The notes beneath the pieces are model-generated. The model was not told where the DNA came from. It saw nothing but the letters and a program-made list of their open reading frames with translations, and made no database searches. The position numbers were made by a program, and so were the translations under genes. DNA of 64,000 nucleotides from Deltaproteobacteria bacterium (GTDB lineage Bacteria > Myxococcota > Myxococcia > Myxococcales > JAHFDP01). This document shows positions 1,501-30,839 of this stretch, piece after piece. The first letter of the stretch is position 1; every line of letters begins with the position of its first letter. The stretch spans positions 1-64,000 of the forward strand of contig JAHFDP010000002.1 of the NCBI GenBank assembly GCA_023248955.1, read 5' to 3'.

Positions 1501-1509
1501 GATCTTCTC

Positions 1510-1974: not shown

Positions 1975-2010
1975 TTTTTATTTCCCTTTTTAATAAACTA
2001 TAATGGTTAA

Positions 2011-3195
2011 TTACTTGGTTCCGCCGGCCATTTGGCCAATACGGAAGATCACGAATTCAGCGGGTTTCACGGGGGCGATACCGACCTCGCAAATCATCTG
2101 CCCCGCGTCGACGACTTCGGGCGGATTGGTCTCTTCGTCGCACTTCACATAGAACGCCTCTTCCGGCGTCTTGCCCATCAGCGCGCCGGAATTGTAGACG
2201 CGCAAGAGAAAGGCAGTCACGTTGCGACTCACGCGTTTCCAGAGACTTTGATCGTTTGGTTCGAAGACAACCCACTGTGTGCCCAATTCAATGGACTGCT
2301 CGATCATCAGAAAGAGCCGGCGGACATTGACGTAGCGCCACGAGGGGTCGCCGGAGATGGTTCGCGCGCCCCACACGCGAATGCCCCGATCGCCCATGTT
2401 ACGAATGCAGTTAATTCCGCGCGGATTGAGAAAATCCTGCTCGGCTTTACTCATGCTGTGTTTCAGCCCGAGCGCGCCGCGCACAATCTCGTTCGCCGGT
2501 GCCTTGTGCACGCCCCGTTCGCCATCCGACCGCGCATAAATGCCGGCCATATGTCCCGACGGAGGAGCGAAGATATTTCCTTTCTGCGGATCGTAAACCT
2601 GTATCCAGGGAAAATAGTAAGCCGCATATTGAGAATCGCGCGGCTTGGGCATCTTGGCGATCCCGTCCTTAGTCAACTCCTCCGGCGCGTCGAGAATCGC
2701 AAACCGGTAACGACTGTTTTCACAATGACCGATCACCGCGTCCTGAATCGCGGGATCGGTTTGTCCCGGCGCTGCTACCAATGAAATGTCAGCGATATCA
2801 TTAAACACATGGAGGCCGGTCCGGCGCCCCGGTCCTTCGTCTTTGCCGATGTAGCGCGCTGGCCCGACCGCGGGTGCCGCCTCCGCGATTTTCAGTGCAC
2901 CGGTCTCTTTTGTCTTTTCCGACGGTACACGTGGCGCCACGTTGCAAACAAAAGCCTTGCTACCGCCATTATTAAAAAAGCCATAAACAGCATGCGCTAA
3001 ATGGCCGGAGTGGCAGAAATCGCCAAACGTGCGCGCATACTGACTCCAATTCGTCACCAGCGTGGCCTCATTCACCGGACCCACGCTCGACTCACCGATA
3101 AAGGCCGCGGTGGACGTTCCGGATGATTCAATGGGCTTCGTTCCGCGATCGATTTCTTCGACAAACACACCGGGAGAGAGATACGACGTCGCCAT
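2011..3195 (-). CDS. Contractile tail sheath protein, first copy
   Basis: 394 residues from the ATG at 3195, which is preceded by AAGGAG at a good distance. The frame stays open for 69 more codons upstream, but those residues look random, so I reject the longer form. Sheath signatures: TSYLSPGVFVEEIDRGTKPI at the N-terminus, TAAFIGESSVGP, YGFFNNGGSKAFVCNV near 90, YAAYYFPWIQVYDP in the middle, PPSGHMAGIYARSD, and RYVNVRRLFLMIEQSI followed by QWVVFEPNDQSLW near the C-terminus. It forms the contractile outer layer of the injection particle. It is encoded directly before the tube gene and is a diverged paralogue of the partial sheath at the left edge. Confidence 0.95.
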   Translation of the reverse strand: MATSYLSPGVFVEEIDRGTKPIESSGTSTAAFIGESSVGPVNEATLVTNWSQYARTFGDFCHSGHLAHAVYGFFNNGGSKAFVCNVAPRVPSEKTKETGALKIAEAAPAVGPARYIGKDEGPGRRTGLHVFNDIADISLVAAPGQTDPAIQDAVIGHCENSRYRFAILDAPEELTKDGIAKMPKPRDSQYAAYYFPWIQVYDPQKGNIFAPPSGHMAGIYARSDGERGVHKAPANEIVRGALGLKHSMSKAEQDFLNPRGINCIRNMGDRGIRVWGARTISGDPSWRYVNVRRLFLMIEQSIELGTQWVVFEPNDQSLWKRVSRNVTAFLLRVYNSGALMGKTPEEAFYVKCDEETNPPEVVDAGQMICEVGIAPVKPAEFVIFRIGQMAGGTK

Positions 3196-3260
3196 TTTTG
3201 ATTGCTCCTTGCTGGGTGAGGGCGCCGCACAAAGGATGCGGCGCGGCGTTGGGAATACGT

Positions 3261-3866
3261 TTAGGAAACTCGATTGGGGTTCAGAAGGTCGATAACCCGC
3301 GACTGAACGCGCTTGGTTCTTCCAAGCTCTCGCTCCGAATGAAGCCGCGCGCGTGCCACATATCCCGCCGAAAGTCGCATCGGCGTTCCAAGCGATTGCC
3401 AAAAGAGCGCCTGCCGCTCCGGTGTCCAGTGCTCGTCGTATTCCACCGGCACGGCTTCATTGGCGCGCCAGCTCTGACCCACGAGCCATTCTCCGGAGAG
3501 AGACGCGTGTTCCAGGAACGCCTTCATGGCAATCGCCAAAAGCGTTTGCTGCTGACCCGGATCATCATCCGCGGCGGTGACCAAATAATGCAGGTCGAGA
3601 TCGAGCGGATGACCATATTTAACGACGGTGACTTCACCATTCGATCCCGGCTCGTCCACCTCTTCTTCCCACGGTTCATTGCGCTGCGTTTGGTATGGCC
3701 TTACCTGATAAAGGCAGAGGCAAAGCTCGGACTTCCTTCTCTCGAACAACGCATTCCCGGGAACGCCGAGCACAACCTTGGCCCGCGATTTTTGTTTGGC
3801 CAACTCGGCCTGAATCACGCCCAGAAGAGATGCGCTGGTATTTTGGATGACGAGGTGCTTTTTCAA
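3261..3866 (-). CDS. DUF4255 protein, Pvc16/Afp16-like tail terminator
   Basis: About 201 residues from a TTG start at 3866 (LKKHLVIQNTSASLL). Family features are the N-terminal helix, FERRKSELCLCLYQVRPY followed by QRNEP, and HPLDLDLHYLVTAADDD before QQQTLLAIAMKAFLEH. In Afp/PVC particles this family caps the tail and terminates tube and sheath length. The frame is open back to an ATG at 4013, but those extra 49 residues are Cys/Arg-rich and unlike the family, so the TTG fits better; no strong ribosome binding site decides it. The gene sits directly upstream of the sheath. Confidence 0.85.
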   Translation of the reverse strand: MKKHLVIQNTSASLLGVIQAELAKQKSRAKVVLGVPGNALFERRKSELCLCLYQVRPYQTQRNEPWEEEVDEPGSNGEVTVVKYGHPLDLDLHYLVTAADDDPGQQQTLLAIAMKAFLEHASLSGEWLVGQSWRANEAVPVEYDEHWTPERQALFWQSLGTPMRLSAGYVARARLHSERELGRTKRVQSRVIDLLNPNRVS

Positions 3867-4212
3867 AAAAGTTCCCGTGCGTGGGGCCCGGATCCTTGGG
3901 CCGCAAAAGAAACGGGTGCTCTCGTAGGCGCAGAAGGCGCACGGTCCTATAGGACAACTGGCCGACAGATCTTTTGTTCGGTTAACGCTAATGCGCTCGG
4001 CAACCGTGACCATCGCCTTGCTTCATCGCACCAAATTTTCTGCACCCACGGAGCCGTTCACCGATTGGCTCGCTGCGCGCGCTCCTGCAGCATCGATTCA
4101 ATCAACGCCCACCGTTTGGATTCGACCGAACGAGATCGACGACGCGCTTGGTAAAGTGCGTGAGCAATTCCTTCTTCGACGCGGAATTTCTCGACTCCAG
4201 AGGGGCTAGCGA
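3867..4212. other. Non-coding or unassigned stretch inside the eCIS cluster
   Basis: About 346 bases between the stop of the VWA-FHA gene and the favoured start of the DUF4255 gene. If the longer DUF4255 start at 4013 is used, 200 bases remain. A minus-strand frame ending in a stop near 4070 is open and gives a plausible helical peptide (VEKFRVEEGIAHALYQ then charged), but I found no ATG, GTG or TTG for it in the stretch I checked. It could be a decayed gene, a 5' leader or chance. I see no convincing terminator or promoter. Confidence 0.35.
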
Positions 4213-5643
4213 TTACTCGCGATCGTCGCTGGCGAACGTCAGGCTGGTCTCGAATTTCAATTCGGCCTGACCGAGGGTAATGACGTCGCCATTCCGCAAC
4301 AACCGGCGCGACGTTTTGCGACCATTCACCAGAACGCCATTCGTAGAGTCGCTGTCGACAATTTCAAATTTAACGTCCTCGATGCGAACCAGGCAGTGCT
4401 GCCCGGACACCCCGGCATCGCCGAGACGGATGGCGTTCTCGGGCGCGGAGCCGATCTGTACTGTCCCACTTATTAGCGGAAAGACTTTTCCAGCAGATTG
4501 ACCTTTTTGAACAAGCATCTTTGCTCTCGCTGATTTTAAGCAAAAAAGGCAGGCATCCCATTCCGCAATCTGAATTCGCCTACAAACCGGACATTCGCGC
4601 GGCGGTGGCGGCTTCGGGCGCCTCACCAGGTAGACGCCAAGAACGAGCCCCACCATGAGCAACGCGACAAAGGCGAGAATTATATACTTAAACCGGTGGC
4701 TAACTTCTGGCGTCGCAAAGGTAATGGTCCCGCGAAGCGGCGTAGCACCCTCGCCCATTTCCACGACCACGTCGAGCCGGTGGTTCTTACCATCCGAGGG
4801 AAGATCGCTGTCGAAATCGATGACGTATTGCCGCCCCACCTGTTCACGAAGACGATTAAAAGCCTTTGATAAATCGTCAGCCGTCGGCGCCGGTGCGTAA
4901 TAACCGCCGGTCCGCAAGGAGAGCAGGCGCAAATCGGCAAGCTTGTCGTCGCCCATTTCGGAATGACCAATCGCATGAATAGGGATGCGCTTCTTGATGG
5001 CCTCGGAAATCACCCGCTCTGCATCGGCGGATGACCCATTGTCGCGACCGTCCGCCAAAACAAGGATGGCGCGCGCCGACGGAAGCGCGCTGCCGCCGGC
5101 CATCTTGGACTCTTGATAAAGCGAGAGCGCCGCTTCGATTCCGTCGTAGAGCGAAAATCCGCGACCCAGCGATTGGAGCTTTGCCAGCTTACTGATGACG
5201 TCCGCCTTTTCCGCCGTAAAACCCGAGATCACCTCGGGAGCGTCCGAATAATCGACAATGGCAAATTGGTCCTTTTCACCGCCCGCGGCGACAAATCCGC
5301 CAATTGACCTTTTGATATCTTCAAGAATGAGGAGCACTGATCCAGAGGCCTGAACCACCAGCGCCACCGCAGCTCCCGACCCGGACTTTTCAAGAGTATC
5401 GACGTGGTTCGCCTCTGCGGACGCCGTTCCCCCGTTTTCGTAAATCCTAAAAACATCCTTCGTCAGGCCAACGACCGGCGCACCCTGGGTATTGGTGACG
5501 AGCACGTAGATACGCGCGCGCGGCCACCGCTCCCTGGACGTCTCCACGCGCTGAACCACCAGCCGCGGTCCCTCCGCAAACGCCGAGGGTGCGACCGCCA
5601 AAAGCAAAGCGACGACGGCGCGCCCACGCAGCGCGCTAACCAT
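4213..5643 (-). CDS. VWA domain - TM - zinc ribbon - FHA domain protein
   Basis: About 476 residues from the ATG at 5643, which directly precedes a signal peptide ending SAFAEG. Order: an N-terminal beta segment with VFRIYENG (FHA/VWA-linker type); a VWA domain from about residue 85 to 260; a membrane helix (FKYIILAFVALLMVGLVLGV) near 315-335; a CPVC...CLFC zinc ribbon; and a C-terminal FHA domain with GSAPENAIRL, SGQHC and STNGVLVNG. The VWA metal site is degenerate: the first motif reads QASGS where DxSxS is expected, while ADGRDNG keeps the later acidic residue. Topology suggests VWA in the periplasm and FHA in the cytosol. It overlaps the preceding FHA gene by 8 bases. I infer a sensor or scaffold linked to the injection system. 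Confidence 0.85.
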   Translation of the reverse strand: MVSALRGRAVVALLLAVAPSAFAEGPRLVVQRVETSRERWPRARIYVLVTNTQGAPVVGLTKDVFRIYENGGTASAEANHVDTLEKSGSGAAVALVVQASGSVLLILEDIKRSIGGFVAAGGEKDQFAIVDYSDAPEVISGFTAEKADVISKLAKLQSLGRGFSLYDGIEAALSLYQESKMAGGSALPSARAILVLADGRDNGSSADAERVISEAIKKRIPIHAIGHSEMGDDKLADLRLLSLRTGGYYAPAPTADDLSKAFNRLREQVGRQYVIDFDSDLPSDGKNHRLDVVVEMGEGATPLRGTITFATPEVSHRFKYIILAFVALLMVGLVLGVYLVRRPKPPPPRECPVCRRIQIAEWDACLFCLKSARAKMLVQKGQSAGKVFPLISGTVQIGSAPENAIRLGDAGVSGQHCLVRIEDVKFEIVDSDSTNGVLVNGRKTSRRLLRNGDVITLGQAELKFETSLTFASDDRE

Positions 5644-6163
5644 CTCGTTTGCGTATCGAAAGGCACTTAAATTCAAACTCGATATCCCCAAGTTTAACGA
5701 GGTCGTTGTCGATGAGCGCGTGTTTCTGGACCTGCTCGTCGTTCACAAATGTCCAATTCGACGAATCGAGATCCGCAATCTGAAATTCACCTGCTTCAAA
5801 TCGAATCGTCGCGTGCTTGCGACTTATTTTCTTGTCGGACACCACGATATCGCAGCTAGCCGCCGACCCCACCAGGTTCTTTCCCGGACACAATCGAAAA
5901 TCCTCGCTCTTGTGAACGCCATTGAGAGCGACGATCCACCCCACGACCGGTCCCCTCCGGCCGGAGACCGTTCCGCGACCGGGAACTTGATTGACATCGA
6001 TGAGCACCGTGCTTCCCGGGCTGGCTTGCGCAGAAGCTGGGGCTGCCACTGCCGCCGCGCAATAAGGGCAGGCATCCCAAGAGAAATGAAGGACATGCCC
6101 GTTTGGGCATACTTTTCCCTCCGGCGATCTTTTTTTCATACGAGAAATAAATGAAAACATCAC
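5636..6163 (-). CDS. Zinc ribbon - FHA domain protein
   Basis: 175 residues. An N-terminal zinc ribbon (CPNGH ... WDACPYC, residues about 19-38) is followed by an Ala-rich linker and a single FHA domain from about 85 to 165 with NLVGSAASCDIVVSD and the phosphothreonine-binding ISRKHATI motif. The usual STNGT loop is altered to SSNWTFVND. FHA domains bind phosphothreonine peptides, so a natural partner is a substrate of the Ser/Thr kinase encoded at the head of this cluster. The WDAC-x-[YF]C ribbon is shared with the next gene, pointing to common ancestry or a common binding partner. No signal peptide: cytosolic. Confidence 0.88.
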   Translation of the reverse strand: MMFSFISRMKKRSPEGKVCPNGHVLHFSWDACPYCAAAVAAPASAQASPGSTVLIDVNQVPGRGTVSGRRGPVVGWIVALNGVHKSEDFRLCPGKNLVGSAASCDIVVSDKKISRKHATIRFEAGEFQIADLDSSNWTFVNDEQVQKHALIDNDLVKLGDIEFEFKCLSIRKRDG

Positions 6164-6196
6164 GCGTCCGTTCTGAAGGCCAAAGACCTTGCCGCC

Positions 6197-7711
6197 CTAC
6201 GACGGTTGATAAACCCATACCTGAAACATGTTGATATCGCGTTCGGCGCTCACCGCTCGGACGCTTAGATCCAAGGAATCCCTAAAGACAAAACTGCCCG
6301 GCACCAAGAAATAATGGTTTCGCCAGCGGTGCTTTCGGTCGGCTTCTCCAACTTTCCAGAGTCCGACCTTTTTTCCGTCGGCGAGAACTTCGCAGGTCTG
6401 CTCCCCAAGAATGGCGTCGAAGCGTTTGATCAACACGACGTCTTTTCCCGGTTTGCAATTGAGGACTTTCCATTTCGCCGCACCACCGACGTAGGCAATT
6501 CCTGCATCCGAGACCTCGGTATTGTCGGGATAAGAAAACGTCTGCCGACTCTTCCACATGTCTTTTTGGCCTTCGATACTGAAGCGGTGGGCGCGCTCCG
6601 ATTCCTCGTGAACCAAATTGAGATGATCAATGAGAACGAAATTGGAACCGTCAATATTGAGCCGTTCCGGGAAATCGCGTGAACGAACCAAGAGATCTTT
6701 CCAGCTGGTGCGTTCGCCCTCGATGCGGGGACCTTCCGGGCGTTCGGATCGCTCCCGAACAACGAGCGCCAGGGACGCGTTCGCAGCATTGAGGAACCGC
6801 GCCAGGCCGAGGCACCCTTCGTTGTTGCGCGGTCGGTCACGCGCCACGTTCTGCAGTGCTTCCAGCGACTTTTTAAAATCAGCAAAGCCATTTCGCGTGG
6901 CAACGTGCGCATGATTTTTTTCGACGTCCTCGACCATTTCCCGCGCCAGGTCGACAATCGGGGAGAGCGTCTCGGCCAAGTTAAATGGACCGATTTGATT
7001 GGACCAATGAAGAACCTCCGCCACGGCGGCCACCGTTCGCACGCTGCTCGCGCTGGACACTCCAATCCGAGCCAAGCCCGCCGTTAACGCGCAGAGGTCG
7101 CCCAATCCCTCGATGAGCTCCACGCGAAGGCGCGGCGCAGCATGCCCTCCGGCGACGCCAGCCACGGGGACGAAGCGCAAATCGATTTCACCAGCCCCCG
7201 GTGCGTGTGGCTGGACCGCATCGCGTATTTCGCGAACGTCCTCCTCGAGTCGAATGCGCGCCAGTTCAATAGCCTCGGTTCCATCGGGTTCCCGCGCCGT
7301 CACTTCGATTTCCGTTTTTTCTTCAATGCGCCGATGTCCTTTGAATCGCGGATTTTCTTGATAAGCAATAAAGTCGGCCGGCTCCTCGAAATAACGGGCA
7401 GCGACATAAAGTGTTTGCGGCAACTTGAGTTTGTTCGTTTCAATCACTCTGATTAGCGGATCTCGCAACACCATTTCGTGCCCCTGTCCGTCGAGGGCAA
7501 ATCCCGGCGCCACTTCAATGGAGAGATCGCCCTTCCCTCGCGCCGCAACTTTGAATCCGCCGCCTTGGACCGGCACGACACCAGGCATGTGAAAGACGCG
7601 GTTATGCAACCATCGTTTCTCCAGGTGATACGCCTCGGCCGCATTCCAATCTTCGTCCGTCGTAAAAAATCCCTCGAAAAAATTGATTCGTTTGATGGCG
7701 TGATCTGACAT
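6197..7711 (-). CDS. Putative eCIS adaptor or fibre-like protein with C-terminal beta domain
   Basis: 504 residues. The N-terminus (INFFEGFFTTDEDWNAAEAY, then LEKRWLHNRVFHMPGVV) matches a module I know from eCIS and tail loci: NxFxGxFLTAxDF...YH..KR..HNR.LHG.GVV. It is followed by a beta-rich segment (ALDGQGHEMVL), a helical middle (250-350) and a C-terminal part (from about 375) that looks like a carbohydrate-binding-type jelly roll, ending HRWRNHYFLVPGSFVFRDSL then SVRAVSAE. The C-terminal half resembles the DUF2961 end domain, but this is a weak visual match. GAGGAG precedes the ATG. Between the gpI-like gene and the FHA gene, a role in linking or displaying something at the baseplate is plausible. 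Function not proven. Confidence 0.65.
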   Translation of the reverse strand: MSDHAIKRINFFEGFFTTDEDWNAAEAYHLEKRWLHNRVFHMPGVVPVQGGGFKVAARGKGDLSIEVAPGFALDGQGHEMVLRDPLIRVIETNKLKLPQTLYVAARYFEEPADFIAYQENPRFKGHRRIEEKTEIEVTAREPDGTEAIELARIRLEEDVREIRDAVQPHAPGAGEIDLRFVPVAGVAGGHAAPRLRVELIEGLGDLCALTAGLARIGVSSASSVRTVAAVAEVLHWSNQIGPFNLAETLSPIVDLAREMVEDVEKNHAHVATRNGFADFKKSLEALQNVARDRPRNNEGCLGLARFLNAANASLALVVRERSERPEGPRIEGERTSWKDLLVRSRDFPERLNIDGSNFVLIDHLNLVHEESERAHRFSIEGQKDMWKSRQTFSYPDNTEVSDAGIAYVGGAAKWKVLNCKPGKDVVLIKRFDAILGEQTCEVLADGKKVGLWKVGEADRKHRWRNHYFLVPGSFVFRDSLDLSVRAVSAERDINMFQVWVYQPS

Positions 7712-7722
7712 GGGCTCCTCGG

Positions 7723-8583
7723 TTAACTGCTCTCTTGGGTGAATGGTCCGTCGCCTCGACCGCCGATTCGGGCGTTCACGCCGATGCAGGTTTCTTTTCC
7801 CGCGCGCAGAAACGTCACCGGCGGCAAGGACGACTCTTTCGTTGAAAAAAGGAGGGCGTAGCGTGCATGCGCCGGCTTTTCAGCTTCGACCACCGCATGA
7901 ATGGTGCGCATCCGCTGCGCTGACACCACCCCTTCTTCCTCGCTCAATTTCACGACAAAGCATTGAGCAATGACAACCGGCCGCGAAAGCGTCGAATTGC
8001 GTCCAATAACCGCGCTCTTTCCAATGATGAATCCTGGATAAGGCCAGACCGATTCAATGACCCGTGACTCGGTTTCGGCAAACAAACGTAAGGCGAGACG
8101 GAGCCCTTCGGCGGTACCGCGTTTCTGGTGTAGCTCCGGCGCCCGCTGAATGATTTCCCGCCGCCGCGATTCGCTCCAGCCTTCTTGCGAAGGCAGCGCT
8201 AGCCAGCTGGCTAGCCATGGGAGAAAATGCTCGGGCGTGAGCCTCGGATCGAACGTGGTGTGCTGAAACGAAACGCGCTCTTCAATGGATGCACTCAGGT
8301 GCTGCTGAATCAATAAGAACCGTTTAAGGAAATCGCCATTTTCCTCGTCTGCATCTTCGTAAATAGCCGGGAGATGGACGCGCCAGCTTTTCGTGGCCAC
8401 CTCGAGACGAATTGGACCGTCGAGCGCAGCACCTTCCTTCGGGTGCTGCGCGACGACCTGGAGCGACTCGCCGTCGCTTTCCACCAAGTGAACTTCGACC
8501 GCGGCGCCCACGCGTTGTTGCGCTAGACAACGCGCTTCTGGCAGTGCTAGCCCAATCAGGTTTGGTGCACGATGACCATTCAT
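7723..8583 (-). CDS. gpI-like phage tail protein with N-terminal PASTA-like domain
   Basis: 286 residues. Residues 8-65 (LIGLALPEARCLAQQRVGA ... VVAQHPKEGAALDGPIRLEV) have the shape of a PASTA repeat. The rest is the tail protein domain TIGR02242 (P2 gpI / Afp12 region): WRVHLPAIYEDADEEN near 68, then LKRFLLIQQHLSASIEE, TPEHFLPWLASWLAL, and HQKRGTAEGLRLALRLF. This family sits in the baseplate wedge and recruits tail fibres. It overlaps the end of the J-like baseplate gene by 4 bases, so the two are coupled, which fits assembly of one wedge complex. Confidence 0.88.
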   Translation of the reverse strand: MNGHRAPNLIGLALPEARCLAQQRVGAAVEVHLVESDGESLQVVAQHPKEGAALDGPIRLEVATKSWRVHLPAIYEDADEENGDFLKRFLLIQQHLSASIEERVSFQHTTFDPRLTPEHFLPWLASWLALPSQEGWSESRRREIIQRAPELHQKRGTAEGLRLALRLFAETESRVIESVWPYPGFIIGKSAVIGRNSTLSRPVVIAQCFVVKLSEEEGVVSAQRMRTIHAVVEAEKPAHARYALLFSTKESSLPPVTFLRAGKETCIGVNARIGGRGDGPFTQESS

Positions 8584-11507
8584 CCGCGGTCCGTGATTTC
8601 CAAATTCACGAGGTGCGGAAGCTCGTCCTCGGCCAGCGCAAGTGCCTCCACACCGAGGCGGCGATCTTCGTCGAAGAGGATTAACGCGGAAATACGATCG
8701 ATGCCTTCGATACTTTCAATGGCTGGAACCAGATCCGCCTTTCCGATCGATCGTCCAAATGGCCAACCCTCTCCGCGCGGTCCGCCCGTGAGCGGATGCA
8801 AAAGGCGGCTCACGCGATCGCGAATCGCCACCTTGGCGCGGTCGGCATTGGCGCCTGCCTTCAACCGAACCACGACCTCCAATGACAGACCGATATAATG
8901 AGGTCTCCCCACGTGCACCTGCGCGGTAATGAGACGTCGACGGTCGATATACGCCGCAATGCGATCGAGCAAATCGCGGCTAGGTACAGCGCGATCGTCG
9001 CCGTCACGCACGCACTTAGGCACTATCAACAAACGGACGGATCCGTCGCGCGCAGATCGTATGCAGTGCGCGCGGGCCACACGACGGCTGGCGGCCAGGG
9101 CCAGCATTTCGTAGTCCTCCGCGGTCACCGCGCGATCCCGATTCTTGATGGAGAACGTGCCGCGCCGCTTGGCTTCCTCGAGCGTCTCCGCATCGGCGCC
9201 GCCATCGGCGGAAAATGAATTCTCCACCTTTTCGACAAAAGCGATGGATTGTTTGAGAACGCTCAACGAATGCGCGCCGACATTGCCGACTATGCCTCCG
9301 CCGATTCGATATTCGCATTGAATTCCGTCGCGCACTGCGGGCGGCACCTGGCTTCGACGCCCATCGCCGAAACGAATCGAACCTTCAATCGGATCGAGAA
9401 CAAAATGGCGCGCCTCGGGTGCGCTGTCGAAGAAGTGCTCCACCTGAGTCCACGGAACCCAACAGCCGTCTGCCGCATCATTTTCGATTGCAAGAGTGCC
9501 ATGCTCCGCTTCGATGGCCCGACGTTCGTCGAGTGACAGTTCGTCGGGCTCTCTCACCCAAAGTTTCGCCTGCGCCAGCACGGGCGCATTGGCCAGCGCC
9601 ATGACCTGATCGGCAGAACCGTCGGACGACCCGACCTGTTCGCGAATGGTCACGGCGTTGAAAGCGTCCACGGCGTTGGCGGTGACCTGCTGCAAAACGG
9701 GCGGCTGATGGTATGCCCCCGATTCAAGTCGCGCGCGCAGCCAATAGAGAACGGCGCCGAAGCGTTCATGCGCGGCGGCGTTTTTCGGGCCTTCGAAGCT
9801 CAAATAGCCCGAGCGAAGAAATCCCTGCGTCCCATCGTCGGGTGCGAGATCAGTCCAGCGCCCGCCGTCCCAATACTCCCACGCCACGCGCGGTCCGCGC
9901 TTTGGCTCGCCATCCTCGCTCTCTTCGAGCTTGAAATAGAGCGTGATCGTTTCTCGTGGAAACGCTTCCAGGAACCCGAAATAGACCGCCGGGCTGGCAT
10001 CTTGGTACGGAAGAAATGGCTGAAAGAAAACATAAGGCCGCGACGCGTCGTCTGAATGGTTTCGAAATTGAAAGTCATTCAACGACAGAACGTGCGCGAC
10101 TGGCCGCGGCTCACAAATGTATTTCAGCGCCAATGACCTCATGAATGGCGGCCGCAACGGGAAATCCTGCTTAAAGACCCAATGATCGCCTTGCAGTTCG
10201 TAATTCCCTGGCTCGCCGAAGTGCCCCGCATCGAGGCGCGCGCGGATCCAACGGCTCTTCACTCCGCCCACTTCCGACGCGGCCAAATCCGCCGGACGAT
10301 CAAAACTCACCACGCCGCTCCTTGAAAACGCCATCGATGTATCGAGGAACTGGTGATTTCCCTGTGCGGCGGAAACGCCCATTGGTGTCACGTGCCCCAA
10401 TTCGCTCCAGCGGCGACCGTTCCAATATTCCCAGCACAGCACCAGATCCGGTGAAGGCCCCGGTATCTCCTGGACCGTGGGATCAGCGAGATTGACTTCA
10501 ATGCATACGCGCGCACCTTGTGCTTGAAGCAAGTCGTCGTGCGCCAAATAGAGCGCGCAATCGAATTTCGGCTCTTCGCCAAGTGGATAAAAAGATTTCC
10601 CTTGATCAATGGGCAGAAAGAGAGAGCTGCCGATGTTGACGAAAGCGTGCTCCGGAGTCAGGCCTTCGCCCAGAATCTCCATACGAAGCTGCACACTATC
10701 GAGCTGCACGTCTTGCGGACGCACCAGCGGCTCAATCAATTTTCCGCGTAGCCAGTGTGATTCGATGCCGTGAATGGCCGTCGGCGCAATGGGGTGTCCA
10801 CGAAACGCAAGCCGCCGCGGACCGCTCTGGGCGCGGTCCGGGTCGATCTCGCGCCACCGCCGGCCATCGTAATATTGCCACTCCGTAATCGCGGGCAATG
10901 CCGGCCCCATGGACCCCGGCCTCGGTTCAACAAGGAGATCAATCGCGGCCTCTTCATGAAGCGCGGCCAATTGATCGTCGCCTACATAGAGAAAGCGATC
11001 CACCTCGGTCACGCCTCGAAAGAGCGTTTCCCGCGCCGTCGCCGGATCGTTGAGCGCGGCCGCGTGCTCGGAGACCTCACCGCTTGCCATCGACACCACA
11101 CGCGCCAGACGCAACGGTGAGAGTCTCAAATCACGCGCGGTTTCAAACGTCACCGGATCCACGCCACCGGACTGCTGAGTCGCAACCTGCGTTCCCTTTT
11201 TCACGATCAGGTCGCCCTCCGCACCCTCCGCGGGTGTGAACGTCAACACGGCCCGTGCCGGCTCTGGCGGCAAAAGCCGCACTCCGAGCAGGTCGAGAAA
11301 CGTGAGAAAGTTTTTCTCCGGAACTTTGTTGAGCCGGAAAATCATCATTTCGGTCATCCAGGCATAAAGCTCGATGAGCGTCATGCCCGGATCGGATGGA
11401 TTGTGGTTGGTCCACTCCGGCGTGTACCGCGGAATCAGCCGAACGGCTTCGTCGACAATCTGCCTCCAATTGCGATCGTCGAGATTGGGAATGGGAAGGC
11501 TGGACAT
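8580..11507 (-). CDS. Putative baseplate assembly protein, gpJ-like (Afp11/Pvc11)
   Basis: 975 residues, usual size for the large eCIS baseplate protein (TIGR02243 type). The N-terminus (LDDRNWRQIVDEAVRLIPRY, then PEWTNHNPSDPGMTLIELYA and NKVPEKNFLTFLDLLGV) is the most characteristic part of the family. Repeated YWDG/NGRRWxxL segments fill the middle (about 215, 365 and 560), and the C-terminus holds the J-type FGDGRRSQVPP, NRDRAVTAEDYEMLALAAS and RLLHPLTGG motifs. It should form the wedge that triggers sheath contraction together with the gp25-like protein, whose gene ends 3 bases before this start. Located in the cytosol until particle assembly. Confidence 0.94.
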   Translation of the reverse strand: MSSLPIPNLDDRNWRQIVDEAVRLIPRYTPEWTNHNPSDPGMTLIELYAWMTEMMIFRLNKVPEKNFLTFLDLLGVRLLPPEPARAVLTFTPAEGAEGDLIVKKGTQVATQQSGGVDPVTFETARDLRLSPLRLARVVSMASGEVSEHAAALNDPATARETLFRGVTEVDRFLYVGDDQLAALHEEAAIDLLVEPRPGSMGPALPAITEWQYYDGRRWREIDPDRAQSGPRRLAFRGHPIAPTAIHGIESHWLRGKLIEPLVRPQDVQLDSVQLRMEILGEGLTPEHAFVNIGSSLFLPIDQGKSFYPLGEEPKFDCALYLAHDDLLQAQGARVCIEVNLADPTVQEIPGPSPDLVLCWEYWNGRRWSELGHVTPMGVSAAQGNHQFLDTSMAFSRSGVVSFDRPADLAASEVGGVKSRWIRARLDAGHFGEPGNYELQGDHWVFKQDFPLRPPFMRSLALKYICEPRPVAHVLSLNDFQFRNHSDDASRPYVFFQPFLPYQDASPAVYFGFLEAFPRETITLYFKLEESEDGEPKRGPRVAWEYWDGGRWTDLAPDDGTQGFLRSGYLSFEGPKNAAAHERFGAVLYWLRARLESGAYHQPPVLQQVTANAVDAFNAVTIREQVGSSDGSADQVMALANAPVLAQAKLWVREPDELSLDERRAIEAEHGTLAIENDAADGCWVPWTQVEHFFDSAPEARHFVLDPIEGSIRFGDGRRSQVPPAVRDGIQCEYRIGGGIVGNVGAHSLSVLKQSIAFVEKVENSFSADGGADAETLEEAKRRGTFSIKNRDRAVTAEDYEMLALAASRRVARAHCIRSARDGSVRLLIVPKCVRDGDDRAVPSRDLLDRIAAYIDRRRLITAQVHVGRPHYIGLSLEVVVRLKAGANADRAKVAIRDRVSRLLHPLTGGPRGEGWPFGRSIGKADLVPAIESIEGIDRISALILFDEDRRLGVEALALAEDELPHLVNLEITDRG

Positions 11508-11510
11508 GGA

Positions 11511-11903
11511 TTAGCTGCCGGTCAAATAAAAGGGAAACACCAGGTTATGAACCGAATTGGTGGCGCGAATTTCGTAACGGACATCGACCAGAATTCGCTC
11601 GGGAGAATCGGGATCAGGATTGGCCTCGACTTTGATATTGAGAATGCGGGGCTCCCATTTCTCGAGCGCTTCTTCCACGTGATGGGCCACCAGCGTCTGC
11701 GTCGACGTGTTGTTGGGCGCAAAAACGAAATCGTGAATCGCGCAACCGAACTCGGGACGCATTTGCCGCTCACCTTTCGCGGTTCCGATAATGATGCGAA
11801 CACACGCTTCGATGTTCTGTTCGTATTTGGAGACGGCGACGTTTCCCGCCGGTCCGACGGAAAAGGGGAAACGAAAACCGATGCCGAGGAAATTGCTGCG
11901 CAC
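11511..11903 (-). CDS. gp25/GPW-like baseplate wedge protein (Afp9/Pvc9)
   Basis: 130 residues from a GTG start at 11903 with GGAG upstream. Family features: FLGIGFRFPFSV at the N-terminus, the NIEACVRIIIGTAKGERQMR stretch, RPEFGCAIHDFVFAPN (the conserved RPxFG...DxxF motif), then VEEALEKWEPRI. In T4 and eCIS this small protein contacts the first sheath ring and starts sheath polymerisation. It is the first structural gene of the cluster, 74 bases after the kinase and 3 bases before the J-like gene. Confidence 0.93.
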   Translation of the reverse strand: MRSNFLGIGFRFPFSVGPAGNVAVSKYEQNIEACVRIIIGTAKGERQMRPEFGCAIHDFVFAPNNTSTQTLVAHHVEEALEKWEPRILNIKVEANPDPDSPERILVDVRYEIRATNSVHNLVFPFYLTGS

Positions 11904-11977
11904 GTCGCTCCAGTCGGGGGAAAATGGGCGGCGTGTGGCTACATCGGGCGAAGCTTGGTTTTCTATACGACGATCGG

Positions 11978-12844
11978 TTAGCCGTTCGCGGGCTGCACGA
12001 CGATTCGTCGCAGGTCCTCGAGAATTTCCGAAGCGTCGCCATAGCGATCGTTGCGGTCCTTGGCCAACGCCCGCATGACCACGCCATCGAACGCAGCATT
12101 GCGCGGATCGGCCGACGACGGCGGTGGCGGCGTCTCCTGCTGAATCGCCTCGAGTGCGGTGAGCACACTCGGCCGGTTAAAGGGATTCCGACCGGTCAAC
12201 ATTTCGTAAAGCGTAATGCCGATGGAAAAGAGATCGGAGCGCTTGTCCAGCTTCTGCGCCAGCGCTTGCTCCGGACTCATATAAACAAATTTCCCTTTGA
12301 TCATTCCCGCATCGGTCTGCGTGGTTGAAATCGCCGATTTCGCAATTCCGAAATCGATAATCTTGACGGTGCCATCGTTACCGACGAGCAGGTTGGAGGG
12401 ATTCAAATCACGGTGAATGATGTTGAGCGATCGGCCCTGTTCGTCACACAGATTGTGGGCGTAGGACGCACCCGCGCAAATCTGTTCGGCGATGTCCTTC
12501 ACGGTTTCCAGCGGCAACCGCGCATGCGCTTTCCGGAAACCTCCTAAGATGGCATCCAAGGGATTGCCGCGGACATATTCCATGGCGATAAAAAAGCTGC
12601 CCGCCTCCTCGCCCAATTCGAAAACCTGGACGAAGTTGCGATGCTTCATCCGAGCGGCCAGGCGCGCTTCGAGGAGAAAGGCGTCGACGAATTCCCTGTC
12701 GGAGAGGTGCGCGAGAATTCTCTTGAGAACGAGAATTTTCTTATCGCCAATGGGCCGCTCCTGCTCAGCCAGAAACGTCTCGCCCATGCCCCCGGCGGCA
12801 ATCCGCTCGAGCAGGCGATATTTTCCAAACATACCCGCGGGCAT
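11978..12844 (-). CDS. Hanks-type Ser/Thr protein kinase
   Basis: 288 residues, essentially a bare kinase domain with no membrane helix. Visible motifs: glycine loop AAGGMGE (about 17-22), VLKRI with the ATP-binding Lys near 41, catalytic loop HRDLNPSNLL near 144, DFGIAK near 164, activation segment GKFVYMSPEQAL, and SDLFSIGITLYEMLTG. All key residues are present, so it should be active. It is the first gene in the run, with the gp25-like gene 74 bases downstream. Two FHA proteins in the same cluster could read its phosphothreonines; this mirrors the PpkA/Fha control of type VI secretion and is an inference here. It is divergent from the DUF4159 gene, with about 60 bases between them. Confidence 0.92.
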   Translation of the reverse strand: MPAGMFGKYRLLERIAAGGMGETFLAEQERPIGDKKILVLKRILAHLSDREFVDAFLLEARLAARMKHRNFVQVFELGEEAGSFFIAMEYVRGNPLDAILGGFRKAHARLPLETVKDIAEQICAGASYAHNLCDEQGRSLNIIHRDLNPSNLLVGNDGTVKIIDFGIAKSAISTTQTDAGMIKGKFVYMSPEQALAQKLDKRSDLFSIGITLYEMLTGRNPFNRPSVLTALEAIQQETPPPPSSADPRNAAFDGVVMRALAKDRNDRYGDASEILEDLRRIVVQPANG

Positions 12845-25593: not shown

Positions 25594-26562
25594 TTAGTCG
25601 GGCTTCCAGCCGTGGTGTTCGTTCCATTCGATTTCGTCCTCGATGGTGTGCGTGAGCAGATCCGGCGTCGGCTTGAGCACGAGATACCGGCCATTCAGAA
25701 AGAGCGCTGGCGTCGCGGGCACCTTCAACGCCGTCGCTTCCGCTTTGGTTTTGTTGACGACGTCCGCGTAACGATTTTCGTTCATGTGCTTGAGCAGCTC
25801 GTCACCCTTGATGCCGACGCCGGCCGCGATCTTTTTGAGATCGCCATCCTCCAAAGATTCTTGGTGCGCGAAAAGCGCGGCATGAAACGCCCAAAATTTG
25901 TCCGGATATTTTTGGTGCACATACTCGGCAGCCTGCGCCGCGATCTGTGCGCGGGGATGCATGGGCAGCGGAAAATATTTCGAGCAGAGTTTCACTTTGC
26001 CGACGAACTGTTTGGTGACCACGTCATCGAGCAGCGGCGCTACCGCAGCGCAGTGCGGACACTGGTAATCCGAGAATTCAACGACGGTGATCGGTGCCTT
26101 GGGATTTCCGCGAAAGACGCAACCCTCTTCGCTCGGATGCTGCCGATGCTCGTTGGGGAACGACGCGTAGTAGCCCTCGAGTTGCGCGATGACGAGCCCG
26201 GATCCTACGCCGTCCGCGAGTGCCTTGGTGGCCAGCGCAGCAGCGCGCGGAGCGTGACCGCAAGCGTTGTGATCTTTCAGGCAGCCGGCCAACGTGTGCG
26301 GACAGCCGCAATAGCAAAACGTGTCGGTCGCCACTTCTAAGAGCCCGGCGCGCTGGGCCGGCGTGAGTGACGATGTGTCTACACGCGGAAGAACCGCGCT
26401 GAGCTGCTCAGCGGTGAGCGCGGACGGTGCAGCGGGCGGTGGCGCCGCGCTGGGAGCGGCAATGGGAGCGGCCGTGCTGGGGCGCTCACGCGAACAGGTA
26501 ACGACACAAGCCGCCGCAACCGCAAAGCTGACACCGGCGACTGTTTTCGAGCGGGATTTCAT
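25594..26562 (-). CDS. Lipoprotein with CcmH-like Cys cluster and DsbA-type thioredoxin domain
   Basis: 322 residues from the ATG at 26562, preceded by GAGGAG. A lipobox (VVTC, Cys near 23) and a Pro/Ala-rich linker come first. Residues about 80-125 hold TFCYCGCPHTLAGCLKDHNA followed by CGHA, resembling the CcmH-type cysteine domain that reduces apocytochrome. From about 150 there is a DsbA-like thioredoxin fold with the active site FSDYQCPHCAAV and cis-Pro region VPATPALFLNG. It should exchange thiols at the periplasmic face. Its genes downstream encode two CxxCH proteins, so delivery of reduced haem-binding cysteines is a reasonable inference. Confidence 0.87.
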   Translation of the reverse strand: MKSRSKTVAGVSFAVAAACVVTCSRERPSTAAPIAAPSAAPPPAAPSALTAEQLSAVLPRVDTSSLTPAQRAGLLEVATDTFCYCGCPHTLAGCLKDHNACGHAPRAAALATKALADGVGSGLVIAQLEGYYASFPNEHRQHPSEEGCVFRGNPKAPITVVEFSDYQCPHCAAVAPLLDDVVTKQFVGKVKLCSKYFPLPMHPRAQIAAQAAEYVHQKYPDKFWAFHAALFAHQESLEDGDLKKIAAGVGIKGDELLKHMNENRYADVVNKTKAEATALKVPATPALFLNGRYLVLKPTPDLLTHTIEDEIEWNEHHGWKPD

Positions 26563-26624
26563 TCGCGACGCTCCTCGAGAAAAGCGGCGCATCCTAAGAT
26601 GGTGGCGAATGACATTGCAAATCG

Positions 26625-27623
26625 TCAGCGCAGTCTGAAGCTCGAGAATTCCGTTCGGTAGCCTGCGTGCGAGAAATCGTGCCGTGCTGATTCGACGCGA
26701 TACTTTCCGTCGATGCGTGGACCGAACTTCTGAAAAGTAAGCGTGGCCCCGGGGAGGAGGTCCGAATTTCCGGAGAGCCGTCCATCCGCCGTTGCATGAT
26801 CGTCGGCAAGCATTTCGGCGCGACTGCGGGCGATGCGCGCCGCATCCTCGGGAGAGGCCAGGGCAACACCTTCGAGGTCCACGACCTGTTTTCCGAATCG
26901 ACTGGAGAGACGGACACCGTCGCCTGGCACTTTCGATTTTTCCTCGATGGCGCGTTTCTCCTTGGCGTCGTAACCGTGCGCAACGATCTCTTCGACTTGC
27001 CCCGCGGCTCGCATGCGAACGCTCAATCGTTGCAGCGAACCGCCTGGCGCGAGGAAAATCTCGGCGCGCTTGGGCGGCGGACCCAGGATCAATTTTTTTC
27101 CTTCGACGCGTAGCGCATGACCACCACGCTGGGCGCGGGGGCGAAGAAATTGCGCGTCGGTTTGCCCGCGCTGCAAGACGTGCTCACACGGGCTCCGCTG
27201 CGCCTCTCCGGTCAGGCCGTGGTCGCGGGCAATCGTGGCCACCAACTGCCGATCATCGACGTCGTTGAACGCGCGCGTGTGGGTCGAGAGCGCCAAACGG
27301 TGCAGCCGCTCCATGGCGCGCACGCAGAGCACGGGTGGTACGTCACGCGCGAAACGTGGCTCGAGCGCAACAACTTCGCCGTCAAAAATCGCCCGCTGCT
27401 TTCCTTGGAATCCAACGGAAACATGGACGCTCTTTCCGGGGCCGAAGATCTCGCCGGACATCAGTTGCAAGTCGGCATCACCGAAAATAATGCGACAGAG
27501 GCCGATCCTATCGGTGGCCAGCTCCACCTCGACGCGCACGACCTTCGCGTCGATCGCGCAGGGCAGTGGCGCGCCGTCGATGGCGACCGCGCAATCGGAA
27601 ACGAGACGATCCTGTTGCGCCAC
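26625..27623 (-). CDS. Phage late-control gpD / gp27-like hub protein without spike domain
   Basis: 332 residues from a GTG start. The sequence fits the eCIS Afp8/VgrG N-terminal hub: KSVHVSVGFQGKQRAIFDGE with VVALEPRF, a VRAMERLHRL motif, AFNDVDDRQLVATIARDHGL, and HVLQRGQTDAQFLRPRAQRG, ending YRVESARHDFSHAGYRTEFS. In phages and eCIS this protein forms the trimeric hub joining tube and spike. Canonical Afp8 continues into a gp5-like OB fold and spike; here the protein stops at the end of the hub. It lies about 14 kb from the eCIS cluster, 13 bases after the S41 protease stop and before the DsbA-like gene, so it sits in a housekeeping-type operon. Confidence 0.85.
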   Translation of the reverse strand: MAQQDRLVSDCAVAIDGAPLPCAIDAKVVRVEVELATDRIGLCRIIFGDADLQLMSGEIFGPGKSVHVSVGFQGKQRAIFDGEVVALEPRFARDVPPVLCVRAMERLHRLALSTHTRAFNDVDDRQLVATIARDHGLTGEAQRSPCEHVLQRGQTDAQFLRPRAQRGGHALRVEGKKLILGPPPKRAEIFLAPGGSLQRLSVRMRAAGQVEEIVAHGYDAKEKRAIEEKSKVPGDGVRLSSRFGKQVVDLEGVALASPEDAARIARSRAEMLADDHATADGRLSGNSDLLPGATLTFQKFGPRIDGKYRVESARHDFSHAGYRTEFSSFRLR

Positions 27624-27636
27624 AAAAAAGCTCGAG

Positions 27637-30600
27637 CTACGGCGTGCCCTTGGGCGCCTCGGTCGGTTCGTTCTGCCCAGCGTGCCCGCGCTGCACCAGC
27701 GCCGCGCTACGACGGTGAATCACCAACGTGCGTTGCGTGGCGAACTGATCATCTTCGCGCGCCGTGATCACCACGGTGTTGTTGCCGGGCTTGAGCGGCA
27801 ACTCCGCGGAGAACTCCATCGGCTTCGCCGCACCCTCGACCTTTTGCGAGGTCTTGAAGAAGACTTTGCGCGCGTCGTTTTCCCGCTCGTGCTGCTCGAA
27901 AATTCGCAAGTCCCGAAGGCCAGCCAAATCGCTGGCCACGCCGGTCAACGTAACGTGATCCGCGTCCACCTCGGCTGCACCGCGCGACGTATCGACCGAG
28001 ATTTTTACGGTTGGTGGCACGCGCGCAAAAAGTTCCGATACCTTTGCGGTCGAATGCCCAGCGGCCTCCGTCGCCGCGGAAGCGGCTACATACCCGATGC
28101 GCCCTTTGGTCCACTCGACACGAATGAAGTCGCCAACTTTCGCTTTGCCCGTCAGCAACGTTCCGCGCTTGGCAAGACCGAGCCGCGGCATGCGAACATC
28201 CGCACCGGCATAGATCGGCGCGTCGGCCGTCGTCTTGAACGTCGCCGCCACCGGAGCCACCGGTGTCTCGGTCTTCAGAACAGGCAGATCGATCTTCTCA
28301 TCCTCGATCTCCAGCACCGCGCGATCGCCAACTTCAATCTGCAGCGGAACCTTGTCGCCTTCGAGCGCTTTGCGCACTTCGATCGTAAAGGTGGCGGTCT
28401 TCGTTTCGCCGGGCTTCAGCTCGCCGAGCCTCGACAATCCACGCTTGATGAAGACTTTGTCGTCGCCGAGATTTTTCACGCTGGCGTAAGTGCGCGCGGA
28501 TTTTCCGATGCCAACGTTTTTCACATCGACCTGCACATCGACAGTTTCGCCGCGCTCGATCATGCCGTCACCTTGCGGTCCATCGAGCACCTGCCAATTG
28601 AAAGCGAACGATGGACGCGCCAACTCCACGGTGTCCACTTCGGTCCGAATATCGTCCGGGGCGCGATTCTGCGCTTCGGCGAAATGGATCTGCACATCGT
28701 CGCGACGACTCGGCAGATATTTCGGCATGCGCACCGGAACCATCCAGGTGCGATGCTCGCCCGGTCCCAATTTTCCGAAAATAAATTCACGCCGATCGAG
28801 CATCGGATTTTCGCTCGTGGTGTAAGCGTGCAGACGACCCACCGTCGCGGGTCCCGCGTTCATCGCGGTAATGGAGAACTGCATGGTGTCACCCGTCGTG
28901 GTGCGCGGCGTCTTCACTTCCGCCGTCACATGCGCAACGCCCGCCGTTCCCGCTTGCCAATTCACGCCCAGCTTCTCGATAGCCTGTTGAATCTTTCCTT
29001 CCTCGGACGTGCGCCGCTCGGCAATGAACGGCCGCGACTCTTCGAGCTGCTTCAACCGATCGAGCGCGGGCGCGCGCAGCACCAGGTCGCGACAAAATTT
29101 CACTTCGTAATCTTCGACCAATTCGTCGCTGTCCACTTCGTCATCCTCGGCGGCCGCGACCTCCTCTTCCGATTCGACTTCCAACTTTTTCTCTTTGGCG
29201 TCGAGTTTGTCGTTGTCATCGCGCAAATAGCGCAGCGACTCGGACGGCTTCTCGGTCGGCGTGGCCTTCACGTCCTTCGAGACTTCGGCAAAGTTGAGCC
29301 CGAAGTGGTTGTCGAGATCCTCCTCGCGCATCAGCTTCACCGGCGCAAAAAGATCGACGCGATTTTTGGTCACGCGCGACGGCACCAGCTCAATGTCCGG
29401 GGTGATCCCGAGCGACTGAATCGAAACGTCACCCGGCGTCAGATACTGCTTGATGGTGAGCTTGAGCGCGCTCTCGTCGCCGCTTCCGCGCTCGCGGAAA
29501 TCGTAGAGCACCTGCACACTGCCCTTGCCGAAAGTCTGCCGCCCTACGATCAGCGCGCGATTCAAATTCTTGAGCGCGCCCGAGACAATTTCGCTCGCCG
29601 ATGCCGATTCGCTGTCGACCAACACCACCATCGGAAAATCGAGCTCGCCGCCGTCATCGTGCGCCATGTTCGGCTCGCGCAGTTTATCGCCCACGCCGAC
29701 CGTGGTCACGATGGTGCCCTCTTTCACGAACGTGTCGACGACGTGAATGGCCTCCTCGAGAAGCCCGCCCGGATTGTGCCGCAGATCAAGCACCAACCCT
29801 TTGAGCGAGCCACCGTTTTTTTCCCTCATTTCGCCGATCGCGGCCTGCAGCTCGCGCGTGGTGGTGCCGGAGAAGCTCGACACCTTGACGAGGCCCACGC
29901 CGTTCTCCATCAGTTTCGAATTCACGCTGTCGATGGTGATGACCGCGCGCGTGAGATCGAATCGCTTCGGCTCCGCGTTACCGCGCGAAATCCAGATCGC
30001 CACTTTGCTTCCAGGCTTTCCGCGCAGGCGACCGACCGCCTCGTTGAGATCCAAGTTGACCGTCGATTCATCTTCGATGCGCACGATGTGATCGTGCTTC
30101 TTCACGCCGCCTTTTTGCGCTGGCGTGCCCTTGAGCACTTTCTCCACCGTCAACTTGTCCTCGCGCATGCGGATCACGAAACCGAGTCCGCCGAACTCGC
30201 CGCGCGTCTGCAACTTCATCTCTTTGTAAACGTCGGGCTTGAGCAGCCACGAATGGGGATCGAGCGTTCCCAGCATGCCGTTCACCGCGGCGTATTCGAC
30301 TTCGCGCGGATCGTCGAGTGGCGACGTCAGGTTCTCTTTGATGAACCCGAACACGTCGCGCATCTTGAGCGGAATCTGCCAAATGTTGTCGAGGTCGTGA
30401 AAATCGATGTCGCGCGAAGCGTTGCCGACGGTGAGCTTGACGTGGCCGTCCTTCGTCTCGCCGGCCACCATCACCTCGACGGCCTGCTTTTCCACCGCGC
30501 GCAGCGCCGAGACGAACATCTCTTTGGGATCGATGCGCTTCGGATCGACGTAGTTGTCCTTCACGCTGATCACGACCTTGCTCAAAACCTCGAGGTCGGT

Positions 30601-30732
30601 CAGGTCATAGTTGGAAGGCTTGTTGTGGATGGTCGCCGCGAGCGCGGGAGGAACAACGGGCACGCCGCGGCCAAGCACCACCAGCGCGAACACCGTGGCG
30701 GCGCAAGCGGTCCAACGAATGAATTTTTTCAT
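27637..30732 (-). CDS. Large S41 C-terminal-processing serine protease, MXAN_5808-like
   Basis: 1031 residues from the ATG at 30732 (MKKFIRWTACAATVFALVVL), an N-terminal signal or anchor; the upstream 35 codons are rejected. The protease core includes GMLGTLDPHSWLL, a PDZ domain (about 175-250, LGFVIRMREDKLTVEKVL), LVLDLRHNPGGLL, the nucleophile motif SESASASEIVSGAL and the general-base Lys in RQTFGKGSVQ. After residue about 490 come an acidic linker (EESEEEVAAAEDDEVDSDEL-like), Ig-like beta domains, an SH3-like segment (GKAKVGDFIRVEWTKGRIGY) and a last beta domain. This size and order fit the myxobacterial MXAN_5808 type. Probably periplasmic. It heads a minus-strand run of about 13.7 kb. 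Confidence 0.92.
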   Translation of the reverse strand: MKKFIRWTACAATVFALVVLGRGVPVVPPALAATIHNKPSNYDLTDLEVLSKVVISVKDNYVDPKRIDPKEMFVSALRAVEKQAVEVMVAGETKDGHVKLTVGNASRDIDFHDLDNIWQIPLKMRDVFGFIKENLTSPLDDPREVEYAAVNGMLGTLDPHSWLLKPDVYKEMKLQTRGEFGGLGFVIRMREDKLTVEKVLKGTPAQKGGVKKHDHIVRIEDESTVNLDLNEAVGRLRGKPGSKVAIWISRGNAEPKRFDLTRAVITIDSVNSKLMENGVGLVKVSSFSGTTTRELQAAIGEMREKNGGSLKGLVLDLRHNPGGLLEEAIHVVDTFVKEGTIVTTVGVGDKLREPNMAHDDGGELDFPMVVLVDSESASASEIVSGALKNLNRALIVGRQTFGKGSVQVLYDFRERGSGDESALKLTIKQYLTPGDVSIQSLGITPDIELVPSRVTKNRVDLFAPVKLMREEDLDNHFGLNFAEVSKDVKATPTEKPSESLRYLRDDNDKLDAKEKKLEVESEEEVAAAEDDEVDSDELVEDYEVKFCRDLVLRAPALDRLKQLEESRPFIAERRTSEEGKIQQAIEKLGVNWQAGTAGVAHVTAEVKTPRTTTGDTMQFSITAMNAGPATVGRLHAYTTSENPMLDRREFIFGKLGPGEHRTWMVPVRMPKYLPSRRDDVQIHFAEAQNRAPDDIRTEVDTVELARPSFAFNWQVLDGPQGDGMIERGETVDVQVDVKNVGIGKSARTYASVKNLGDDKVFIKRGLSRLGELKPGETKTATFTIEVRKALEGDKVPLQIEVGDRAVLEIEDEKIDLPVLKTETPVAPVAATFKTTADAPIYAGADVRMPRLGLAKRGTLLTGKAKVGDFIRVEWTKGRIGYVAASAATEAAGHSTAKVSELFARVPPTVKISVDTSRGAAEVDADHVTLTGVASDLAGLRDLRIFEQHERENDARKVFFKTSQKVEGAAKPMEFSAELPLKPGNNTVVITAREDDQFATQRTLVIHRRSAALVQRGHAGQNEPTEAPKGTP

Positions 30733-30839
30733 GGGATGAAAATCCAGTCCTGCGAGGAGGCGTACGATGGCTTCGTCCGCTCCCCAAGATGATAGGCAAC
30801 CGGCGCTAGCGCCACAAGCATTCTGAAAACAAGTCAACG

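Follow-up and report, generated by a model that had tools for sequence, protein, structure and literature searches.

A stand-alone baseplate hub encoded outside an eCIS cluster and probably supplied to it in trans

Introduction

The hub-spike protein Afp8 is described as highly conserved, with nearly every eCIS locus encoding it, and it serves to detect eCIS and to sort them into classes (PMC12923769). A gene for a hub of this kind that has no spike, and that lies about 14 kb from the nearest eCIS genes, between those of an S41 protease and of a DsbA-like protein, therefore raises the question of which machine, if any, it serves. The window, i.e. the whole stretch of 64,000 nucleotides that was analysed, is the beginning of contig C112 (123,862 bases) of a MAG with 116 contigs and a completeness of 95.6% (G000 in the following); the source of the genome is described as a soil bacterium. 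A first-pass annotation of the window left two readings side by side, namely that the protein serves the eCIS at the left of the window as a split hub, or that it is a hub co-opted for another envelope task.

A hub without spike or tail

The open reading frame at 26625-27623 (minus strand) starts with GTG, 13 nt past the S41 stop codon, encodes 332 aa and ends 32 nt ahead of the ATG of the DsbA-like gene. Its GC content at the three codon positions (0.72/0.47/0.69) is similar to that of the adjoining genes, as expected of a genuine coding sequence. The protein matches Pfam Phage_GPD (PF05954) with 43.6 bits (curated cut-off 30.1) and the tail family PHROG_52 with an E value of 1.5e-24. The NCBIfam model VgrG_rel scores 106.8 bits, below the cut-off of 275 that applies to the full-length model, the match covering profile positions 3-346 of 547, that is, the hub half only. 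Scores against the models of T6SS VgrG proteins stay far below the cut-offs (TIGR03361, 15.7 versus 186 bits; TIGR01646, 22.3 versus 121.8 bits), and the PDB chains matched by the profile of the hub family are those of eCIS/CIS hubs, with 9gtr (4e-27), 7aef, 7b5h, Afp8 (6rbk) and Pvc8 (6j0m).

The structure predicted with AlphaFold2 from an alignment of 59 sequences (pLDDT 89.8, pTM 0.85), which supersedes a weak model built with 15 sequences (pLDDT 66), is placed by Foldseek closest to the hub parts of 7b5h, 7aef and 9gtr (TMq 0.84-0.86), which belong to the Anabaena, Algoriphagus and Streptomyces systems; gp27, gp44 and VgrG hubs are also paired with it. The final strand of the hub stops at residue 331 of 332 in the model, and neither an OB fold nor a spike nor a C-terminal tail or effector domain is found in the sequence or in the model. 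The 32 nt that separate the stop codon from the DsbA-like gene hold no relic of a frame-broken tail. Across its whole length the protein is 37-46% identical to the corresponding hubs of relatives (lineage A, see below) and keeps the invariant residues of the family. Thus, 26625-27623 is shown to encode a protein with the gpD/gp27-type hub fold, without spike or tail. The first-pass description of the gene holds in every respect: the gpD/gp27-like character and fold, the end of the protein exactly at the end of the hub, the place between the S41 and DsbA-like genes and the distance from the eCIS genes are all borne out, although the word orphan, which had been applied to this gene, fits all three hub genes of the genome.

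An eCIS cluster with a spike but no hub

The eCIS cluster occupies the left end of the window, with all genes on the minus strand. It starts with a Ser/Thr protein kinase gene (11978-12844), syntenic in relatives, which is followed by those of the gp25 (Afp9-like) wedge (11511-11903), the Afp11-like baseplate J protein (8580-11507), which serves here as the marker of the eCIS subtype, the Afp12-like Tail_P2_I protein (7723-8583) and a 504-aa protein whose fold was not recognised (6197-7711; 61-67% identity in relatives). A VWA + FHA protein (4213-5691), a Pvc16/Afp16-like cap (3261-4013), a tail sheath protein (sheath 2, 2011-3402), the tube protein (1510-1974), which matches the tube genes that occupy the same position in relatives, and a conserved 129-aa protein related to a PHROG tail assembly chaperone (1111-1500; 76-84% identity within the subtype) come next, up to a further sheath gene (sheath 1, 1-948) that is cut by the start of the contig. 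The kinase and the VWA-FHA protein, with further FHA proteins found around the cluster in relatives, suggest that the particle is likely under phosphorylation control.

The cluster continues on contig C72, the end of which (L038 19476-19658) shares 183 bp with the start of the window (98.9% identity), within the interrupted sheath gene, and the join is supported by the same gene order in G006, G007, G013, G018 and G035. From the sheath onward, C72 encodes a tube protein, a 769-aa protein, a LysM protein of 208 aa and, as a protein of its own, a spike of 229 aa (Phage_base_V). The 769-aa frame (L038 16450-18759), between tube and LysM, has no recognised domain and is similar in relatives only at its two ends.

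In the complete cluster (window 1-12844 plus C72), there is no hub gene, although spike and LysM genes are present. The whole genome holds three Phage_GPD genes, all outside the eCIS, and one Phage_base_V gene, that of the spike on C72. An Afp8 hidden in the cluster was considered and ruled out by reading the C72 join and by a whole-genome search for hub and spike domains, none of which revealed one. The leftward extension proposed in the first pass thus leads to a separate spike and a LysM protein. In relatives a hub gene, of lineage B, sits in the cluster between the VWA-FHA and Pvc16 genes, and in G000 this spot is empty.

The only eCIS_core (DUF4157) protein of the genome, of 1083 aa, is encoded far from the cluster (C92:64745-64972; L165 8445-11696) and is likely the cargo of this eCIS or an adaptor for it. 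Exactly one eCIS_core (DUF4157) protein, together with one or two PAAR matches, is found in each of seven near-complete genomes.

Three hub lineages

The three hub genes of G000 are each representative of a lineage, termed A for the gene in the window, B for that on contig C82 and C for that on contig C103. The B hub (C82:17396-18262; L037 9396-10262) has 288 aa and lies between the genes of a hydrolase and of a TolB-like protein; the C hub (C103:12661-13809) has 382 aa, adjoins rne and is near ligA. The B hub is without about 62 residues, in frame, corresponding to residues ~213-274 of the hub in the window (a hairpin, a loop and a helix), and owing to this loss it may be altered or decaying.

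Among 99 genomes of the order, A-type hubs were found, besides G000, in G006, G007, G013, G018, G023, G029, G032, G035, G041, G044 and G047, and a closely similar Afp11 (at least 57%) is present in these 11 relatives and in G038. When the search was widened to 147 genomes of the class, a closely similar Afp11 occurred in 13, all of which have A, B or C hubs, with the A type in 12 of the 13; none of the other 134 genomes searched has an A-type hub. With group-specific profiles, a single B hub, a single C hub and one or two A hubs were found in each of the seven genomes that carry the eCIS subtype and are at least 95% complete, gaps in the lineages being confined to genomes of 61-93% completeness. 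G026, which is without the eCIS, has none of the three.

In the hub tree, drawn from 13 genomes, A and C are each supported by 100/100 and B by 98/94. Within each of them G000 branches first, then G007 (family f8), then family f7, whose members in GTDB are Deltaproteobacteria/Myxococcales MAGs, an order that is as expected of vertical inheritance; the tree of the eCIS core (sheath, LysM and spike) does not resolve the order of G000 and G007. The three lineages group together, apart from the single hubs of family f4, with moderate support (93/84), and the deep order is uncertain on account of some long branches. As judged from the sequences, A, B and C are three anciently diverged hub lineages. 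Positions conserved in a lineage-specific manner, counted per structural element, give no clear sign of interface specialisation.

The neighbourhood of the dispersed hubs

The gene directly upstream of the hub encodes an S41 protease with PDZ and Peptidase_S41 domains (27637-30837, minus strand), an order-wide housekeeping protein and not part of the eCIS, and the one directly downstream a DsbA-like thioredoxin (25594-26592, minus strand), unlinked to hubs in relatives. Orthologues of the former were found in 50 of the 50 relatives searched and of the latter in 46 of 50, most of them without an A hub, and in relatives the two genes lie at separate places, neither of them with the hub. Neither gene is beside an A-type hub among the loci of relatives that were read, and no hub follows S41 in the five relatives in which its downstream side was read. 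The S41-hub-DsbA order, the conservation of which had been put forward as a check, thus has no counterpart at any A locus and is unique to G000, so that the position of the hub after S41 appears, on the gene orders compared, to be specific to this genome. In two relatives, G018 and G035, S41 and the eCIS share a contig, with about 11-12 kb between S41 and the kinase gene, which indicates that the S41 neighbourhood is an old flank of the eCIS and that the hub of the window lies in the wider flank.

Links between dispersed hubs and eCIS function are suggested by G013, where a PAAR gene is directly upstream of hub A (L049), and by G007, where the sole eCIS_core (DUF4157) gene of the genome is upstream of hub C (L079); these adjacencies are two cases, spotted post hoc. 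In the eCIS of the Myxococcaceae-like family f4, the hub is likewise a separate gene, between those of LysM and spike, and bare hubs are the normal state, which indicates that a split into hub and spike is workable.

Tails of the hubs and further tip genes in relatives

The hub domain of f7 and f8 proteins is followed by further sequence, so that it makes up no more than their N-terminal part; the proteins have 391-2053 aa for A and 519-1676 aa for C, while B hubs within the clusters have at least 1372 aa, the longest being an open frame of 4353 aa. None of the three hubs of G000 has a tail; A has 332, C 382 and B 288 aa. Domains recognised in the tails include OmpA, PG_binding and Amidase_2 in L045, LysM in L092, a DSP-PTPase like those of polymorphic toxins in L050 and carboxypeptidase-regulatory/Ig-like repeats in L047, L058, L059, L078 and L091. 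C-terminal effector domains are carried by both A and C hubs of relatives. HExxH-like motifs were seen by eye in the tails of L044 and L041, with no Pfam family matched, and the coiled-coil tails of L042 and L079 match tape-measure PHROGs, as coiled coils may do spuriously. By analogy, these payload-like or enzyme-like tails may be described as resembling those of 'specialised VgrG' proteins.

Very long, apparently coiled-coil tails are found on B hubs (L056 5776-9894, L057 9340-end, L080 12047-17515, L082, L086 and L088-L090), and could be tape-measure-hub fusions or fibres. Two short A hubs (L046 and L051) share the C-terminal end motif SGAP-F/L-x-E-x-C (GAPFCEEC-like), with no match in the remaining fetched loci. 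Several f7 genomes have extra spike genes at loci other than the eCIS cluster (G035:C90; G029:C59, L168 1398-6995; G044:C599; G032:C523), in very long frames of 779-1988 aa, and a 1881-aa protein adjoining that of G029:C59 (L168 7204-12849) contains a PAAR domain; it is possible that these loci are further payload-bearing tip islands. G000, G006 and G007 have a single spike gene for three to four hubs.

A hub probably supplied in trans

The protein encoded at 26625-27623 probably acts as a hub subunit in the baseplate of the eCIS, the cluster of which lies 14 kb away, and is thus provided in trans, and from the evidence above we infer that it assembles with the eCIS particle. The split-hub reading is favoured because the eCIS continues on C72 with a stand-alone spike and LysM but no hub; that A hubs, among the 147 class genomes searched, are confined to those with this eCIS subtype supports it as well. 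Of the two findings named together in the first pass as speaking against that reading, one was made, since the gene order is unconserved, and the other was not, a complete Afp8 being absent from the main cluster. Against a supply in trans it may be held that, in a MAG that is 95.6% complete in 116 contigs, another hub gene could be missing, that the site beside S41 and DsbA is without counterpart in relatives, and that the B hub on C82, the true counterpart of the in-cluster hub, is also present, so that the eCIS might use B or C instead.

The close spacing on both sides of the gene (13 and 32 nt), suggestive of a single transcript, would suit a role of the hub in an envelope task together with the S41 protease and DsbA. 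This reading is not favoured, and indeed has become very improbable, because the order of the three genes is found in G000 only and is kept at no A locus of relatives, S41 (50/50) and DsbA (46/50) occurring mostly without an A hub while A hubs track the eCIS; no hubs were seen in genomes that have S41 and DsbA but are without this eCIS. That the gene is the remnant of a prophage or of a T6SS is hardly credible: the fold is indeed common to phage hubs and VgrG, but the closest matches are eCIS hubs, no phage genes were recognised nearby and the tree unites the gene with the A hubs of eCIS genomes (100/100). Decay deserves more attention, since every A hub of relatives has at least a short tail (391-2053 aa) and the B hub of G000 is about 62 residues short, as if a former tail-bearing hub-effector had lost its tail and gone out of use. 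However, the frame is of full length, with 37-46% identity and the invariant residues of the family kept, its predicted fold is complete and confident and its codon-position composition normal, and bare hubs are the normal state in the f4 eCIS; a decaying remnant is, therefore, improbable.

If the hub is supplied in trans, a ring of three hub subunits would connect the tube with the homotrimeric spike encoded by the cluster (on C72), with LysM, gp25 and J proteins making up the remainder of the baseplate. Upon contraction, hub and spike would move with the tube into the target, as the fold and established tail biology suggest. The C-terminus of the hub would point toward the spike, at the site where payload-like domains are attached in relatives, the C-terminal fusions of which would travel into the target as well, like those of T6SS specialised VgrG. 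In G000 this site is empty, so that cargo would be loaded otherwise, in the tube lumen, through PAAR or through the eCIS_core protein. The ancestors of A, B and C probably replaced the ordinary single hub of a LysM-hub-spike arrangement and later left the cluster.

One mixed ring or alternative rings

How three lineages would share one machine can be answered in two ways, which are given about equal weight, each below even odds. A, B and C may be alternative hubs, forming separate homotrimers and, hence, three types of tip that differ in payload, like the orphan vgrG/PAAR islands of T6SS (PMC6899460, PMC10433429). The strongly varied C-terminal tails of relatives and the extra spike and PAAR genes that several f7 genomes have beyond the cluster, partly within very long frames, make this a serious if minority possibility, but G000 has kept all three hubs with their payloads gone, no lineage has been lost in any near-complete genome, and there is a single spike for three hubs in G000, G006 and G007. 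An obligate heterotrimer, with one A, one B and one C in an asymmetric ring able to present three different C-terminal tails, is put forward tentatively in the light of these same facts: three lineages are kept for a three-subunit ring in seven of seven near-complete genomes, B and C are always in single copy, one spike gene stands against three to four hubs in the three genomes just named, and each lineage appears vertically inherited. That three lineages are maintained for three subunits, even without payload in G000, where alternative payload carriers would offer no explanation, suggests a mixed A-B-C ring, and VgrG heterotrimers have been depicted as one configuration in a review (PMC10433429). 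Conversely, gp27/VgrG-type hubs have so far been modelled with threefold symmetry, VgrG1 and VgrG2 of Serratia reportedly do not mix with each other (PMC4924876), a second copy of A is present in some genomes, the B hub of G000 is without its hairpin-helix block and several f7 genomes have extra spike genes. The fuller proposal is somewhat more doubtful still, namely an obligate A-B-C heterotrimer encoded at scattered loci, in which each subunit would carry an exchangeable payload (enzymes, Ig-like arms or tape-measure-like coiled coils) and of which G000 would retain the stripped, bare core.

Relation to known systems and significance

Each of three features, the hub fold, the separation of hub from spike and the fusion to payloads, is already known from phages or T6SS. 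The hub fold is shared with Afp8, Pvc8 and further eCIS/CIS hub-spikes (6rbk, 6j0m, 7aef, 7b5h and 9gtr; TM 0.73-0.86), and partners of the Afp system that are also present here are the Afp7-like LysM protein, Afp9, Afp11, Afp12 and Afp16. In Afp8/Pvc8-type systems, however, hub and spike are one protein (about 505-640 aa), whereas here there is a separate spike gene and three hub paralogues outside the cluster. T4 gp27, Mu gp44 and R2-pyocin have, as here, a stand-alone hub of about 320-390 aa and a separate spike protein, but encode a single hub within the tail cluster, with no trio of dispersed paralogues. Specialised ('evolved') VgrG proteins of T6SS (VgrG2b, PMC6899460; PMC10433429) bear enzymatic C-terminal extensions at scattered loci, like the hubs of relatives, in which, by contrast, the extension comes straight after the hub, with no OB fold or spike in between, and which belong to an eCIS; the protein of the window is free of any extension. 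The hub gp15 of cyanophage A-1(L) (8kea; PMC10966104) joins hub and hydrolytic domains, as in relatives, but belongs to a phage and is a single, homotrimeric hub. In the open-licence literature searched, no eCIS was found that combines a cluster without hub, three dispersed hub lineages and tails placed directly on the hub, nor was a description of payload-like domains on the hub as a covalent route for eCIS cargo.

Thus, although Afp8 is treated as a near-universal gene of eCIS loci, a clade exists in which no fused hub-spike was found. If A, B and C share one ring, the tip would depart from threefold symmetry in a defined manner; if the hubs alternate, this eCIS would have the mix-and-match tip logic of T6SS.
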